Of a stretch of DNA of 64,000 nucleotides, positions 37,216 through 45,062 are shown piece after piece. The stretch is from Verrucomicrobiota bacterium. GTDB taxonomy: Bacteria; Verrucomicrobiota; Verrucomicrobiia; Opitutales; Opitutaceae. The stretch covers positions 62,001-126,000 of the forward strand of contig JAGVUB010000112.1 in the NCBI GenBank assembly GCA_019136515.1, in the 5' to 3' direction. The notes under the pieces were generated by a model that saw only the letters and a program-made list of their open reading frames with translations, was not told the DNA's origin and did no database searches. The first letter of the stretch is position 1; each line of letters opens with the position of its first letter. Position numbers and translations under genes: made by a program.

Positions 37216-37638
37216 ATGAAAACCGCATTCCATCTCCTCCTCGCAGCCATCCTCCTCGTCGGCTCCGTCAGCCTCGCCTCCGCCGCCGGCGGCGTCTTCA
37301 TCACGAATCCAACAGGGCCCGACTCGCTGACCAAGGCGGACATCAAGAACATCCTCCTCGGCAACAAGACCAAGTGGGATTCCGGCGGCCTCGTGAAGCT
37401 CGCCGTGCTCAGCCAAGGGCCCGTGCACGAGTCCATAGTACAAGAATACACCGCACGCTCCGCCGACCAGTTCGACAAGTACTGGAAGAAGCAGGTCTTC
37501 ACCGGCAAGGGCAGCTCCCCCGACTCATTCAAGACCGATGCCGAACTGGTCGCTTTTGTCGCGAAGACACCCGGCGCCTTTGGCTACATCGCCGGCGACG
37601 CCAAGCCCGACGGCGTGAAGGTCATCAGCGTGCAGTAG
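37216..37638 (+). CDS. small PstS-like periplasmic substrate-binding protein
   Basis: A 140-residue secreted protein (signal peptide about residues 1-24, [12 protein letters not shown]). The mature part resembles the PBP-like domain of phosphate-binding Pst[36 protein letters not shown], and DGVKVISVQ at the end. At about 115 mature residues it is far shorter than PstS (about 300), so it is one lobe only and no ABC transporter genes adjoin. Sitting between porin and chemoreceptor, it may present a bound ligand to the receptor. A decayed copy lies at 39371-39592. Confidence 0.75.
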
Positions 37639-37666: not shown

Positions 37667-39250
37667 ATGAAGAACCAACTCAGCATCCGCACCAAACTCC
37701 TTCTGGGGATGGCCATCCTTGTCGTCGGCTATGTGGCCTCCGCGGGAATGGGATTCTTCGCCGGTGCGCTGCGGGAGAAGGAGCTTGCCGCCATCGGCAC
37801 CGTCAGCGTCCCGATCTCCCTCAAATGTCAGTCCGCCCTGTTCGAATTCGAAGCCGGCGCCAAGGCCTACAACGATGCGCTCATGACGGGCGACCCCGAC
37901 ACGCTCCAAATCGCGACCGCCGAAACAGCCAAGGCGGTCGCCGCACTTGAGCTGATCGGACAATCCGCCGCCACCGCGGGACTTGGCGAGACTGAGATCG
38001 GCACACTCCGCACCCACCTCGCTGCGCTGGAAGGGCTGCGCCGCGAAGTGTTCGCCGGTATGAGTGGCGATGGCGCGGCCCGCGAGGCCACCCGGACCAA
38101 GGCCGAGGCTCTCACCGGCTCCACCGAGAAGGCGCGCCAAGGTCTCATCACGCTCGCCACGACCGCCGCCAGTGTGCTCGACAAGCGCCTCGCCGCCAAC
38201 ACCGCCGCCACACGCCGCCAACGCATGGCCAATCTCTACACTGCCGCACTGGTCATCCTCGCCGGCAGCAGCGTCGTATTTCTTATCATCCAGCGCTCCA
38301 TCGTGCGCCCGATCCGCCGCGTGGCCGCCGGCGTGCACAGCAGCGCCGATCGCGTCGAGTCGGCCTCGAACACCATCCGCGAATCCGGCCGCCAGCTCGC
38401 CGACGGTGCCAGTGCGCAAGCCGCCTCCCTCGAGGAGACCAGCGCCACCCTCGAGGAGATCTCCAGCGTAGCCCGGCGCAATGCCGACCACTCGGCCACC
38501 GCGAAGGAGAAGGTTTCATCCGCCCGCGGCGTCGCCGAGCGTAGCATAGCCGATGTCGGCTCGATGCGTTCCGCCATGGGCGAAATCAAGGCCGCCAGCG
38601 ACAACATCGCCAAGATCGTGAAGGCCATCGACGAGATCGCCTTCCAGACCAACATTCTCGCCCTCAATGCCGCCGTCGAGGCCGCGCGGGCCGGCGAGGC
38701 CGGCGCCGGGTTCGCCGTCGTCGCCGAGGAGGTGCGCAACCTCGCCCAGCGCAGCGCCAAGGCGGCGCAAGAGACCGCCTCGCTCATTGAGGATTCGATC
38801 TCGAAGAGTGAGCGCGGCGTCCAGATCAGCGCCAAAGTCGCCGGCGGGTTGGAGGAGATCGGCCAGCAGATCCGCGAGATCGATACACTCGTGGCCGAGA
38901 TCGCCCAGGCCTCGAAGGAGCAGAGCAACGGCGTCACCGAGGCGAACAAGACCGTCGTCCAGCTCAACGAGATGACCCAAACCAACGCGGCGGCCGCCGA
39001 GGAATCCGCCGCCACGGTCGAGGAGCTCGCCGCGCAGGTCGGCGCCCTCAACGCCTACACCGACGAATTGATTCTCACCGTCCACGGGACCGCTGCGGCC
39101 GCAGCTCCTGCAACACCTTTGCCGGTGGGGACACCGGCGACCTCGGCAGCGAACACCCCCATCATCCCCCCCAAGCCTGCGGCTCCGGCCAAGCCGGTGC
39201 AGGTCGCAACGAAGGGGGACGCCCACGACTCGTTCTTCAAGAACGTCTAG
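37667..39250 (+). CDS. methyl-accepting chemotaxis protein
   Basis: A 527-residue chemoreceptor. Membrane segments at residues about 11-31 and 190-210 flank a periplasmic four-helix-type sensing domain of about 155 residues. A HAMP segment follows ([19 protein letters not shown]), then a cytoplasmic coiled coil whose tip is [20 protein letters not shown], then [17 protein letters not shown] (about residues 321-357), which binds CheA and CheW. The C-terminus is Pro/Ala-rich and ends DSFFKNV rather than a CheR pentapeptide. Third gene of the porin operon. Confidence 0.92.
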
Positions 39251-39370: not shown

Positions 39371-39592
39371 TGAGCCGCCCACGAGGCCGTGATTCAGGAG
39401 TATACCGCCCGCGCCGCCGGTCAGTTCGACAAGTATTGAAAGAAGCAGGTCTTCACCGGCAAGGGCAGCGCTCCCAACGCGCTCCAGACCGATGCCGCGC
39501 TGCTCGCGTTCGTCGCCAAGACACCAGGCGCCTTCGGCTACATCGCCAGCGGCACTGCGCCAAGCGGCGTGAAGGTTGTCGCTGTCCAGCAA
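39371..39592 (+). pseudogene. decayed copy of the small PstS-like gene
   Basis: The plus strand encodes HEAVIQEYTARAAGQFDKY, a stop (TGA at 39437-39439, where the intact gene has TGG for Trp), then [31 protein letters not shown] and GVKVVAVQ. This matches the second half of the protein at 37216-37638 with many substitutions. The N-terminal half and signal peptide are absent. It lies 120 bases after the chemoreceptor, so an ancestral duplication of the binding-protein and receptor unit is likely. Confidence 0.8.
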
Positions 39593-39899: not shown

Positions 39900-41066
39900 A
39901 TGTCCACTCGGCCCACCGGAATTCTCGCACTTGAAGATGGCAGCGTCTACCGCGGCCTGGCCTTCGGCGCCCGCGCCACCATTGCCGGCGAAGCGGTGTT
40001 CAACACCAGCATGACCGGCTACCAGGAGATCCTCACCGATCCCTCGTACTTCGGCCAGATCGTCACGATGACCGCGCCACAGATCGGCAACTACGGCATC
40101 AACCCCGAGGACGAGGAGTCCGCCCGTCCGCAGGTCGCCGGCTTCGTCGTGCGCGAACTCAGCCCGATCGTGAGCAACTGGCGCAGCCGCCTGTCCGTGC
40201 ACGACTACCTCCTCAAGCACGGCATCCCCGGTCTCCAGGATGTCGACACCCGCGCCATCACCAAGAAGCTCCGCGTCGACGGCGCCATGCGCTGCTGTCT
40301 CTCCACCGAGGACCTCTCCGACGCCGATGCCGTGGCCCGCGCCCGCGCCCGCGCCAGCATCGTCGGGGCCGACTACGTCAAGGACGTCACCTGTGCCAAG
40401 TCCTACGTCTGGGACCCGAAGGACCCGACCAACCTCGCCTATCTCCCCGTTGGCACCACCCTCGGCGCGTTCCCGATCCCCGCGAAACGCTTCACGGTCG
40501 CCGCATTCGATTTCGGCGCCAAGCACACCATCTTCCGCAAGCTCGTGCGCCACGGCTTCGACGTCCATGTCCTCCCGGCCAATGCCACCGCCGCGCAGGT
40601 CAAGGAACTGGCGCCCGACGGCCTCTTCCTCTCCAACGGTCCCGGCGATCCGGCGGCGCTCCAGTATGTGCACGGCACGGTGCGGGAACTGATCCCCGAC
40701 TACCCGACCTTCGGCATCTGCCTCGGCCACCAGATGATCACCCACGCCCTCGGCGCCTCGACCTTCAAGCTCAAGTTCGGCCACCGCGGCGGCAACCAGC
40801 CCGTCAAGAATCTGGAGACGGGCAAGGTCTCGATCACTTCGCAGAACCACGGCTTCGCCGCCGATCCGCAGTCGCTCGAGAAAGCCGGGGCGGTCGTCAC
40901 CGAGGTCAACCTCAACGACGGCACCGTCGAGGGCCTGCGCCACAAGACGCTCCCGGTCTTCTCGGTCCAGTACCACCCCGAGGCCGCGCCCGGCCCCAAC
41001 GACGCCGATCCGCTGTTCGTCGACTTCTATCGCCTGATCGAAGCCCGCAAGGCCGGGAAGATCTGA
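39900..41066 (+). CDS. carA: carbamoyl-phosphate synthase small subunit
   Basis: A 388-residue CarA, the glutamine amidotransferase subunit that feeds ammonia to CarB for arginine and pyrimidine synthesis. N-terminal domain motifs are ALEDGSVYRGLAFGA and VFNTSMTGYQEILTDPSY. The class I amidotransferase domain follows with the nucleophile Cys in TFGICLGHQMI, plus LFLSNGPGDP and VQYHPEAAPGP with the catalytic His-Glu pair. I use the ATG at 39900; the frame continues upstream without homology. carB is not in the window. A terminator follows. Confidence 0.92.
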   Translation: MSTRPTGILALEDGSVYRGLAFGARATIAGEAVFNTSMTGYQEILTDPSYFGQIVTMTAPQIGNYGINPEDEESARPQVAGFVVRELSPIVSNWRSRLSVHDYLLKHGIPGLQDVDTRAITKKLRVDGAMRCCLSTEDLSDADAVARARARASIVGADYVKDVTCAKSYVWDPKDPTNLAYLPVGTTLGAFPIPAKRFTVAAFDFGAKHTIFRKLVRHGFDVHVLPANATAAQVKELAPDGLFLSNGPGDPAALQYVHGTVRELIPDYPTFGICLGHQMITHALGASTFKLKFGHRGGNQPVKNLETGKVSITSQNHGFAADPQSLEKAGAVVTEVNLNDGTVEGLRHKTLPVFSVQYHPEAAPGPNDADPLFVDFYRLIEARKAGKI

Positions 41067-41208: not shown

Positions 41209-43224
41209 TCAGAGGTCGCGGAAGAAGTTGTCCGGGTTGTCGGACTTCCCGCCGGCTTTGGCAGTCTTCGTCGGCGCCGTTGCGCGTGCTGGCGCAGCGG
41301 CTCTCACCGGCGTTTTCGCCGCCGCCGGCACCTTTGCTTTCGCGGCAGGTGCCGCGTGGGACACCGGCACCACCTTGGCCGGGGCGGGTTCGTAGGCGGA
41401 GGGGGCGCTGCTGGCTCCCGCCGGGCCGGCCGCGACTTCTGCATCGGTATGGACCATGCGATTCAACTCGTCGACGGCCGCCCGCAGGCGATCGGCCTGC
41501 GACTGCAGTTCGGCGGACGAGCTGGCCGTCTCCTCGGCGCTGGCCGCGTTGGATTGGGTGATCTGGTCGATGCGGGAAATCTCGGCGTTGATCGTCTCGA
41601 TGCCTTGGCTCTGCTGTTTGGCGGCGTCGGCGATCTCCTGGATCATCGTGTCGAGTTTCCGAGCACGCTGGGTGATCTCGTTGAAGTTGTTACCGACGCG
41701 TTCGCTCAGCCGGATGCCGTGTTCGCTGCGCTGGTTCGAGTTCTCGATCTTCGCCGCGGTCTCCCGGGCGGCCTCGGCACTGCGGTGGGCGAGGTTGCGA
41801 ACCTCCTCGGCCACGACCGCGAACCCGGCCCCGGCCTCGCCCGCACGCGCGGCCTCGACCGCGGCATTGAGTGCGAGGATGTTGGTCTGAAAGGCGATCT
41901 CATCGATGGTCTTGATGATCTTCGTGATCTCGGCGCCGGCCGACTTGATCGAGTCCATCGCCTCCTTCATGGCCTTCATGTCGTCGGAACCGTGGTCGGC
42001 GGCATGGCGAGTCTCGCCCGCCAACTGCCGGGCGTTCTCGGTGTGCTCGGCCGTACGTTTGATCATGCTGCCCATTTCGACGAGCGAGGAACTCGTCTCC
42101 TCGAGCGAGGCGGCCTGCTGGCAGGAGCCGTCGGCCATGGCTTGGCTGGCGGTGCTGACCTGGCGGGAGGCGGCGGCGGTGCTCTCGCTGCCCTCCTTGA
42201 GAACCGCTGCCACATGGGCGATCGGCCGCGTGACGCTGCGCACGATGAAGACGCCGGCGACGATGCCGAAGATGATCCCAACCAGACTCAGCCCGAGCAC
42301 CAGCGACTCGTTGCGCCGCTGGGCCGCCGAGGTCGTCTGTTGGATCTGCTGACGGTTCTTGGCGAAGAGCGCGTTGAGGCTCAGGACCCGGCTGCTGAAA
42401 TCGTCGGCAACCGTCTTCATCTCCACCTGATAGAGCACCTGGCTGCGCGCGACCCCCACGCTGACCTTGGACAAGCCCTGGAGCAGCGCGGCGGCCTCGG
42501 TGTTGGCGGCCTTCAGGGCATTGCGCCGCTCGGGGTCCTTGAAGGTGGCGTCGAACTCCTCCATCTCGGCAATCTCCTTGTCGATCGCCTTGGCGCCCTC
42601 GACGAGCTTGTTGAGCGACTGCGCGGCCGATTCGGCCTGGGTGGAATCGGAGGTGAGCAGAAACTGGTTCACCCGCATGAGTCCCTCGAAGAAATTCTGG
42701 AGCGCCGACGAGGCCTTGAAGGAGGCGCTCATGTCGCCGCTGTCACGTGCCTTCACGAGCACGAGCTGGAGCGATTGCTGGATCGTCTCCGCCGCGGGCC
42801 GCATCGCCGCCTCGAACTGATCGCGCTCGGCGCGCAGCGCCACCATCTCGGAGAATTGCGACTCGAACCGACCGAAAAGCTGCTGCGAGTCGGAGAGCAA
42901 CGCCTTGGCCGCGGGATCGATCTCCCGTTTTTCCATCTCGCTGAACTGCGTGCGCATCTGCCGGCCGAGGGTGGAGAACTGCGCGGCATCCTCCTTCGCA
43001 CCGCTGACCTGGAATGCACTCACCGAACGAAGGAGATCCTTCATCGCCAAGTCCAAGGCATTCGCCTGGGAGGCGATCTCGGCACCTGCGACCGTCTGTT
43101 CGATGGCGCGGCCCGAGCGACCGAGGGCCAGATAGGCGGTCGCCGCGACAATGGCCAGCAAGACGATGACAACGCCCAAGCCGGCGGACATCCGCCGACC
43201 AACGGTGAAGTGAGCACGGTTCAT
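41209..43224 (-). CDS. methyl-accepting chemotaxis protein with a long periplasmic domain
   Basis: A 671-residue chemoreceptor. Membrane segments at residues about 12-32 and 305-326 enclose a periplasmic domain of about 270 residues, predicted all-helical, the size of a helical bimodular (HBM) sensor. HAMP ([20 protein letters not shown]) and the cytoplasmic hairpin with tip [20 protein letters not shown] (about residue 440) follow. The tail is Ala/Pro/Lys-rich and ends DNFFRDL, like the DSFFKNV end of the other receptor here. It starts 28 bases after the stop of a secreted TonB-C protein and is probably cotranscribed with it. Confidence 0.9.
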
Positions 43225-43252: not shown

Positions 43253-43606
43253 TTATTTGGCCGAGAATTTCACGGGGACCACAACTTGGACGGCGACCGG
43301 CTTGCCGTCCTTCTTCCCTGGCTCGAACTTCCATCGAGACACCGCATCGATCGCCGGTTGCTCGAACTCGGGCCGGGTACTCTTCTTGACGACGACGTTG
43401 GCAACATTGCCCTTTTCGTCGACGGTGAGCGACACTGTGACCATACCGCTGATGCCCTCGGTCTTGAGTGCGTTCGGGTACGTCGGCGGAACGGTCTTGG
43501 TCGGCATCGGCGGTTCATCGAAAGCACTGTCTTGGGCATGCGCGATTCCAGCGAAAGCCAGAGCAAGGCAGACGAGGAGGGAGCGGGGGTGAGGAAGGAA
43601 TTTCAT
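43253..43606 (-). CDS. secreted single-domain TonB C-terminal protein (copy 1)
   Basis: A 117-residue protein. A signal peptide (about residues 1-24, ending GIAHA) is followed only by a TonB C-terminal-like domain: [37 protein letters not shown], and [17 protein letters not shown]. True TonB has a membrane anchor and a Pro-rich spacer, both absent, so it cannot transduce energy alone. It is more likely a soluble periplasmic adaptor. A sigma-28-like site lies upstream, and the gene is followed by the chemoreceptor gene. Confidence 0.8.
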
Positions 43607-43656
43607 GTGCGCGAGTGGGGGTTGCTACACAGTTGGCTGCTGCTGGTTTGCGGATT

Positions 43657-43684
43657 TCATCGTCTCTTTTCACGAGTTTCTTGA
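43657..43684 (-). promoter_or_regulatory. sigma-28-like promoter of TonB-C copy 1
   Basis: The minus strand has TCAA, 16 bases, then GACGATGA. The -10 matches the FliA consensus in 6 of 8 bases; spacing is one base too long. It starts in the same TTTTCCCT context as the site at 44201-44227. Confidence 0.4.
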
Positions 43685-43806
43685 GGGAAAAATGCCCGGT
43701 ACACCCGGAACATCGCCAAGGTGGCACCCGACCGCCATCGCGCACACCCCGAGAGCCGCCACTCGGCCGCCCTCGGGGTAAGGTCACCGGAGACGGTGCA
43801 CCGCAA

Positions 43807-44160
43807 TCACTGCGCCGAGAAACGTACCGGCAGGACCACGGACACGGCCACCGCCTGACCAGCCTTCTTGGCCGGCTTGAACTTCCATTGGGACACAGCC
43901 TGCAGGGCCGGCTCCTCGAAACCGGCATTCGTGCTCTTGGCCACGGCGGCCTTGGTCACGTTGCCATTCTCATCAACGGTGACAGCAACACTCACCATGC
44001 CGGAGATGCCATCACGGCGAAGCGCTTCGGGATAGGCTGGGGCCAGCGTACGAACTGGAGTTGGTGCCTCGTCGAAGGCGGCCTCAGCGCGAGCGATGGC
44101 CGAAGCAGCGACGAAAATTGCAGTGGCAAGGGCGAGTTTCAGGAGGGACTTCTTGTTCAT
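43807..44160 (-). CDS. secreted single-domain TonB C-terminal protein (copy 2)
   Basis: A 117-residue paralogue of the protein at 43253-43606, with a signal peptide (about residues 1-25, ending AIARA) and one TonB C-terminal-like domain: AYPEALRRDGISGMVSVAVT, DENGNVTKAAVAKS, and AVSQWKFKPAKKAGQAV. The pair is of equal length and clearly a tandem duplication. It has its own sigma-28-type promoter. The start at 44160 is chosen because the signal peptide begins there; the frame continues upstream without homology. Confidence 0.8.
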   Translation of the reverse strand: MNKKSLLKLALATAIFVAASAIARAEAAFDEAPTPVRTLAPAYPEALRRDGISGMVSVAVTVDENGNVTKAAVAKSTNAGFEEPALQAVSQWKFKPAKKAGQAVAVSVVLPVRFSAQ

Positions 44161-44312: not shown

Positions 44313-45062
44313 TCAACCGCCGCCCAGCAAGCGTTCGAATCGCACCGCGTCCTCCGGGGTGTCCACACCCACGCTGGGGTCGTCGGTGAGGCCAACTTCG
44401 ATCGCCGCGCCGTTCTCCAGCGCGCGCAACTGCTCCAGCTTTTCGATCTGCTCCAGCCTCCCTGCGGGCAGCCTGGTGAATCGCTCGAGGAAATCGGCGT
44501 GGTACGCATACAGCCCGAGATGTTTATAGCAGGCGTGCTCCGTAAGCCACTCCGCATCCACAGCCCCCGACCTATCGCGGACGTAGGGAATCGACGCACG
44601 CGAGAAATACAACGCCCGCCCGTGCTGGTTGAGCACGACCTTCACCTGGTTCGGGTTTGCGAAGTCTTCGGCCCGGCGAAACCGTGTCGCCAGCGTGGCC
44701 AACGGTGCGTCGCCACGAATCAACTCCGCCAGCGACTGCAGCTGGGCGCGACTGACCAGCGGCTCATCGGCCTGGACGTTGAGCACGTACTTCGCCCCCA
44801 CCTTCCGGTTGGCCTCGGCGAGCCGGTCGGTCCCGCTCTGGTGGTGTACCGCCGTGGCGATGGTCCTGAACCCGTGCGGCTCCAACGCGTCGGCCAGCAG
44901 CGGATCGTCCACGGCGAAATAGAGCGGCAGCTCCGGCATCTGCGCCGTGATCCGCTCCGCCACCCACCGCAGCAGCGGCCGGCCTCGGATCGGGTGCAGC
45001 AGCTTGCGCGGGAAACGCGTCGATTCGAGACGGCACGGGACAATGATCGCGAGCTCGGGCAT
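44313..45062 (-). CDS. kdsB: 3-deoxy-manno-octulosonate cytidylyltransferase
   Basis: A 249-residue KdsB that activates Kdo with CTP for lipopolysaccharide inner-core synthesis. Motifs are [16 protein letters not shown] at the N-terminus, [20 protein letters not shown] and [15 protein letters not shown]. The length is typical. It is divergent from the HPr gene with 85 bases between. Its presence shows a Gram-negative outer membrane. Confidence 0.92.

Follow-up and report, generated by a model that had tools for sequence, protein, structure and literature searches.

A secreted TonB C-terminal-domain protein encoded with one chemoreceptor as its candidate periplasmic partner

What might a secreted protein that consists of little more than a TonB C-terminal domain be doing directly in front of a chemoreceptor gene? 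The question is raised by a stretch of DNA of 64,000 nucleotides (the window), which was located in G000:C108 and whose closest relatives with a name are Opitutaceae genomes from metagenomes. The order of genes on the minus strand is kdsB (cytidylyltransferase, 44313-45062), TonB-C2, TonB-C1 and the chemoreceptor (MCP), on which carA (39900-41066) converges from the opposite side (Table 1). A first-pass annotation had placed one of the TonB-C genes 28 bases ahead of the chemoreceptor. This distance applies between the TonB-C1 stop codon and ATG 43224, a receptor start that is supported by the orthologues, which align from the same methionine.

Table 1. Features of the chemoreceptor loci, in window coordinates.
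Feature	Position	Strand	Description
Secreted protein with partial PBP_like_2 domain	37216-37638	+	140 aa; E 9e-6, just under the cut-off
Second chemoreceptor of the window	37667-39250	+	Preceded by the PBP_like_2 protein with a gap of 28 bp
Chemoreceptor (MCP)	41209-43224	minus	671 aa; start ATG 43224; PF00015 (MCP signalling domain), E 5e-44
Periplasmic ligand domain (LBD) of the MCP	42295-43131	minus	~Residues 32-310; two stacked four-helix modules of the HBM type, predicted (AF2 model)
TonB-C1	43253-43606	minus	ORF, 117 aa; signal peptide at ~residues 1-24 and one TonB_C domain at 40-115; PF03544, E 6e-22
Sigma-28-like promoter of TonB-C1	43657-43684	minus	TCAAG ... GACGATGA; 9/12 consensus positions; 78 bp upstream of the gene
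TonB-C2	43807-44160	minus	ORF, 117 aa; signal peptide and one TonB_C domain at 41-115; PF03544, E 4e-22
Sigma-28-like promoter of TonB-C2	44201-44227	minus	TAAA-N15-AGCGATAG; 9/12 consensus positions; 67 bp upstream of the gene

Both proteins had been described as carrying a signal peptide and no domain other than TonB_C, and the closer analysis agrees with this description. TonB_C was the sole Pfam match in each, and the leaders end in type-I-like sites of the AxA kind (AHA before Q and ARA before E). TonB-C2, a tandem paralogue that is 55% identical to TonB-C1, has a frame that is open upstream to GTG 44271, which would give 154 aa, and it is the start at ATG 44160 that yields the signal peptide. 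Since the leaders were scored by a simple rule of hydropathy and charge, and not by SignalP, either protein may still be held by an uncleaved signal anchor. The domain starts at about residue 32–40 of 117, and with only ~30 residues ahead of it, there is no room for the Pro-rich spacer, as the annotation had noted. Longer versions exist: the receptor-linked proteins of some genera, and those of a second family (f21), have an extra 60–70 residues between the leader and TonB_C (L071, L072, L085, L088, L089, L091, L099, L100 and L102–L104), and a similar-looking segment is also seen in the gene 3' of the receptor in L071, L072 and L074. A long Pro-rich periplasmic spacer is absent from these extended members as well, their 87–102 residues before the domain being, by eye, not Pro-rich.

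How widely is the TonB-C gene found with this receptor? Two sets of genomes, 38 relatives and 372 genomes of the order, were searched with the periplasmic part of the receptor and then merged. The LBD was present in 14 of the 38 relatives, at one copy each, and a TonB-C gene lay directly upstream on the same strand in 12 of these. The order-wide set contained the LBD in 33 genomes (30 loci were examined first, followed by the three weak genomes G138, G149 and G257), 27 of which have the TonB-C gene. Merged, 33 of the 39 genomes of the order that have the LBD encode a secreted TonB-C protein directly upstream on the same strand. The chemoreceptor link, for which the annotation had named a survey of homologues' neighbours as a check, is thus borne out in the nearest homologues, which sit beside the orthologous receptor. 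Across the phylum, 19 of 387 genomes have the LBD, and only three of them lie outside the order, with matches that are weak and N-terminal only.

Pooling all loci, with 80 from named genomes among them (17 of these adjacent to the receptor), gave 113 distinct TonB-C frames, 43 of which are directly followed by the receptor. The gap in these 43 distinct pairs is 12–99 bp, the receptor N-part is nearly constant (440–448 aa from the start to the FQTN motif), and by the hydropathy and charge rule, every one of the 43 linked TonB-C proteins has a signal-peptide-like leader. The pair was found in 20 genus groups by our own count. Its outer flanks vary by lineage (kdsB/carA, argF/argG-like genes, a hybrid kinase, a dgt-like gene and others, those outside the window being named by eye), and this change of outer neighbours indicates that the pair has been kept as a unit. 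No natural fusion of TonB-C and MCP was noticed in the loci examined. The tandem arrangement, in this genus, occurs in the window and in G002 (L031) and is absent in G001; a similar tandem is found in L103. Hence, where the annotation had tied both proteins to the chemoreceptor, the tie stands for TonB-C1, which is paired across the order, and falls for TonB-C2, a tandem copy that does not generally accompany the pair.

Furthermore, the pairing is specific within genomes. Among the 24 TonB_C matches (on 19 open frames, by our count) and the 11 MCP matches of the window's own genome, only TonB-C1 and its receptor lie next to each other. In the single-contig genomes G005, G006 and G021 (16, 16 and 20 MCP matches; 24, 25 and 32 TonB_C matches), exactly one TonB_C gene each lies directly upstream of a same-strand MCP, and it is the gene of this pair; the four genomes together thus have one same-strand pair apiece among 63 MCP matches. 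G005 has one further MCP with a TonB_C gene nearby, a two-domain gene that lies downstream on the opposite strand. As a control on the MCP frames of the collected loci, an upstream TonB-C gene was found for 1 of 16 other MCPs, and that MCP (L104/G116) itself belongs to this LBD family, as one of its weaker members. The same control gave 52 of 57 for the LBD family, a figure in which truncated copies of loci were left uncollapsed and which includes a miss, L096, that is a long-reading-frame artefact; the pair counts were for these reasons drawn from the locus-by-locus surveys instead.

In the tree of the 113 TonB-C domains, a branch with SH-aLRT support of 99% sets apart 62 rows, and all 43 linked ones are among them. 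The 19 unlinked rows on that side include three tandem second copies (TonB-C2 of the window, its counterpart in G002, and L103). Several secreted TonB-C proteins of this clade lack a receptor beside them, L041 and L042 of G005 and G006 for example. The alignment has 86 columns, too few for the finer branching to be reliable. The conserved adjacency suggests that the two gene products work together, and we consider it very probable that the TonB-C and receptor genes function jointly.

A general association of TonB_C proteins with receptors, on the other hand, was rejected: 17 loci around the other TonB_C genes of the window's genome gave one MCP, ~7 kb away (L054). Two further arrangements of TonB_C genes were observed. 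One is a group of secreted TonB-C-only proteins near tex- and terC-like genes (named by eye), with no receptor, at L041 8597-8962 and L042 8578-8946 in G005 and G006; the other is a single open frame with four consecutive TonB_C domains in the window's own genome (G000:C166:4305-5438, L063).

Is the pair under the control of the motility system? The sigma-28 consensus used for the scan was TAAA-N15-GCCGATAA. Sites resembling it had been reported upstream of both TonB-C genes, and both were recovered at the positions given in Table 1. The TonB-C1 site recurs in G002 (L031) and G001 (L032), again with 9/12 positions, at 77 and 80 bp, and the counterpart of the TonB-C2 site in G002 matches at 10/12. 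Sites with at least 10/12 positions within 120 bp upstream were present in 15 of 43 MCP-linked TonB-C genes compared with 2 of 67 unlinked ones, three unlinked frames without a leader-like start having been left out (p 5e-10, a value that ignores relatedness). Judged from these sites, the TonB-C/receptor pair apparently belongs to the motility regulon.

Structure prediction was applied to both members of the pair. The AF2 model of the LBD (pLDDT 86.6, pTM 0.71, 14 sequences) is a double-length four-helix bundle, and its best matches among solved structures are the succinate and malate complexes of McpS (2yfa/2yfb; Z 19.0, 232/230 residues, 2.6 A), followed by PilJ and TorS at Z 15–16 (TorS 3o1i, Z 15.2). 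The LBD is accordingly predicted by its model to have the helical-bimodular (HBM) fold of McpS and TorS. The Pfam HBM profile matched the LBD of the window below its cut-off (E 0.067, 13.1 bits against 29.8) and, over 14 members, gave 5 matches at E up to 1, the best at 0.00041. Among the most conserved LBD positions in the 43 linked receptors are G163, D164 and L175, which in the model would lie at the turn of the membrane-near end, and D225, L228 and D230, which would lie at the far end, both groups being placed from helix lengths. The TonB-C1 model (pLDDT 87.9, 33 sequences) is a complete TonB C-domain. Its closest solved fold is the TonB C-terminal domain bound to FoxA (6i97_D; Z 13.3, 88 residues, 1.5 A), and BtuB- and FhuA-bound forms of TonB are also among its matches. 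Since the predicted fold is that of receptor-bound TonB, binding of a TonB box would be possible for TonB-C1. The model matched this fold and no solute-binding-protein fold, families missing from the match lists not being counted as excluded; the candidate partner of the receptor is no classical binding protein, a point against the sensing model proposed below.

Could a periplasmic protein act on a receptor of this type? Indirect sensing through binding proteins is described as not limited to one type of ligand domain, and CtpL is an example of an HBM receptor (PMC6321045, in the part cited). CtpL of Pseudomonas aeruginosa does not itself bind phosphate and is stimulated by phosphate-loaded PstS, according to the portion of PMC4926252 cited here. 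Similarly, in the cited parts of PMC8534201 and PMC6321045, TorS has two stacked four-helix bundles that are bound by its periplasmic partner TorT. As these precedents show, periplasmic proteins are already known to act on receptors of the HBM type.

We therefore propose, at roughly even chances, that the two genes form a chemosensory module in which soluble TonB-C serves as the periplasmic partner of the receptor by indirect sensing. A soluble, periplasmic TonB-C-only protein would be co-expressed with one specific HBM-fold chemoreceptor and would dock on its periplasmic bundle in the manner of PstS on CtpL and of TorT on TorS. Loading of TonB-C with a peptide-like ligand would then alter what is signalled to CheA. 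As the ligand, a TonB-box strand from an outer-membrane transporter would be most plausible, or else some other peptide of the envelope. Transcription as an operon, the docking, the ligand and the direction of the response are steps that we infer. A more detailed version is that TonB-C samples the TonB boxes of substrate-loaded transporters and informs the HBM receptor, whereby the cell would navigate by the occupancy of its outer-membrane receptors and not by a free periplasmic solute; we offer this version tentatively, as a rather unlikely one.

Alternatively, TonB-C might act on the TonB system itself, as a soluble competitor that would sit on TonB boxes and so lower uptake during swimming, the receptor merely sharing its promoter. 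The receptor-bound TonB C-domains that are the best fold matches (6i97_D, also 2gsk_B) would suit such a competitor, and transporters for it to act on are plentiful, with 16 plug-domain matches in the window's genome and 45–69 in five relatives. However, this explanation leaves open why one specific receptor orthologue should lie next to it in 33 of 39 genomes when the outer neighbours change, and we regard it as unlikely. TonB-C could also be a factor associated with the envelope or the peptidoglycan, one that holds the receptor in position or stabilises it, comparable to SjdR of Anabaena, which is described in the cited parts of PMC8262864 and PMC8597729 as exceptionally short and as shaping septal peptidoglycan. 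The extra ~60–70 residues before TonB_C in some linked proteins would be in keeping with this role, but no further Pfam domain was found in that segment in the four extended proteins scanned, and such a function seems improbable.

Could the genes instead be co-transcribed but functionally unrelated, TonB-C having drifted into the operon as a small secreted protein and stayed there through chance or common sigma-28 control? In the mirror-tree comparison, the ligand domain does not stand out: TonB-C distances go with those of the signalling domain (partial r 0.53) more than with those of the ligand domain (partial r 0.19, Mantel p 0.017). Receptors also persist without TonB-C in G020 and apparently in G349. 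Of the six exceptions to the pairing, one has its TonB-C gene elsewhere (G008, which retains a gene of the G024/G005 type at L038; grouping support 97), one has a decayed gene, and four have none detected. The decayed frame lies in place before the receptor in G349 (L186 2895-3299), with the first half of its TonB_C domain recognisable and the second half not. A TonB-C neighbour was absent in the weak, distant LBD matches of G138, G149 and G257 and at a second receptor in G349, and no TonB-C gene was detected beside the receptor in G020. The G020 receptor has been kept with its conserved LBD residues unchanged, and in the near cases, G020 and G349, there was no signal of residue loss in the LBD accompanying the loss of TonB-C; in the distant LBDs of G138 and G149, positions G163, L175 and F276 are altered, but these LBDs are divergent in any case. 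The mirror-tree result, the receptors and the secreted TonB-C proteins that stand alone, and the unchanged LBD residues count against the partner reading too; the TonB-C gene retained in G008 speaks for it. Drift is nevertheless hard to reconcile with a constant order and strand, a short gap, 20 genus groups with changing outer flanks and a TonB_C domain preserved in 43 distinct pairs, and we hold it to be doubtful. Chance juxtaposition was ruled out by the pair's presence in 33 of 39 genomes together with the same-genome controls.

The second chemoreceptor of the window is laid out in a parallel manner, being preceded by a small secreted protein (Table 1). Homologues of this PBP_like_2 protein occur in 11 of the 38 genomes, including the window's own, and an MCP frame lies within the 1.5 kb flanks in 10 of 16 loci. 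This parallel suggests that a small secreted protein followed by a receptor may be a recurrent layout in these bacteria. A degraded second PBP-like copy, 69% identical and with one internal stop, is found 3' of the second receptor at 39373-39588 on the plus strand (G000:C108:101374-101589).

If the partner reading of TonB-C is correct, stand-alone secreted TonB domains, which are easily annotated as TonB, would acquire a function, and navigation could be tied directly to outer-membrane uptake; the state of the outer envelope may then steer swimming. The pair is small (~93 and 270 residues) and amenable to testing. In a literature search of titles and abstract openings, we found no description of a TonB-C/chemoreceptor pair or of a TonB C-domain as a partner of this kind.

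How does the pair compare with known systems? The TonB-C proteins share with the TonB energy transducer its C-terminal domain, in sequence and in predicted fold, but their leader looks cleavable, the Pro-rich spacer is missing, and their immediate neighbours are kdsB and the MCP rather than exbB/exbD. SjdR is likewise short and TonB-like and does not serve transport; its role, however, is in the septal cell wall, and the parts of the SjdR articles cited above mention no chemoreceptor link. With TorS-TorT, the receptor shares two stacked four-helix bundles (here a fold match at Z 15), whereas TorS is a kinase and TorT a classical periplasmic binding protein, as far as the cited parts describe them. 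As in CtpL-PstS, a helical-bimodular chemoreceptor, here by predicted fold, is found with a candidate periplasmic partner, and this dedicated secreted candidate is encoded with its receptor in 33 of 39 genomes. PstS is the ligand-binding protein of a transporter, while the candidate here is a TonB C-domain of ~93 residues. The helpers described in these sources for indirect-sensing chemoreceptors are ligand-binding proteins, and a TonB C-domain acting as a helper would, if true, be a new class of partner.
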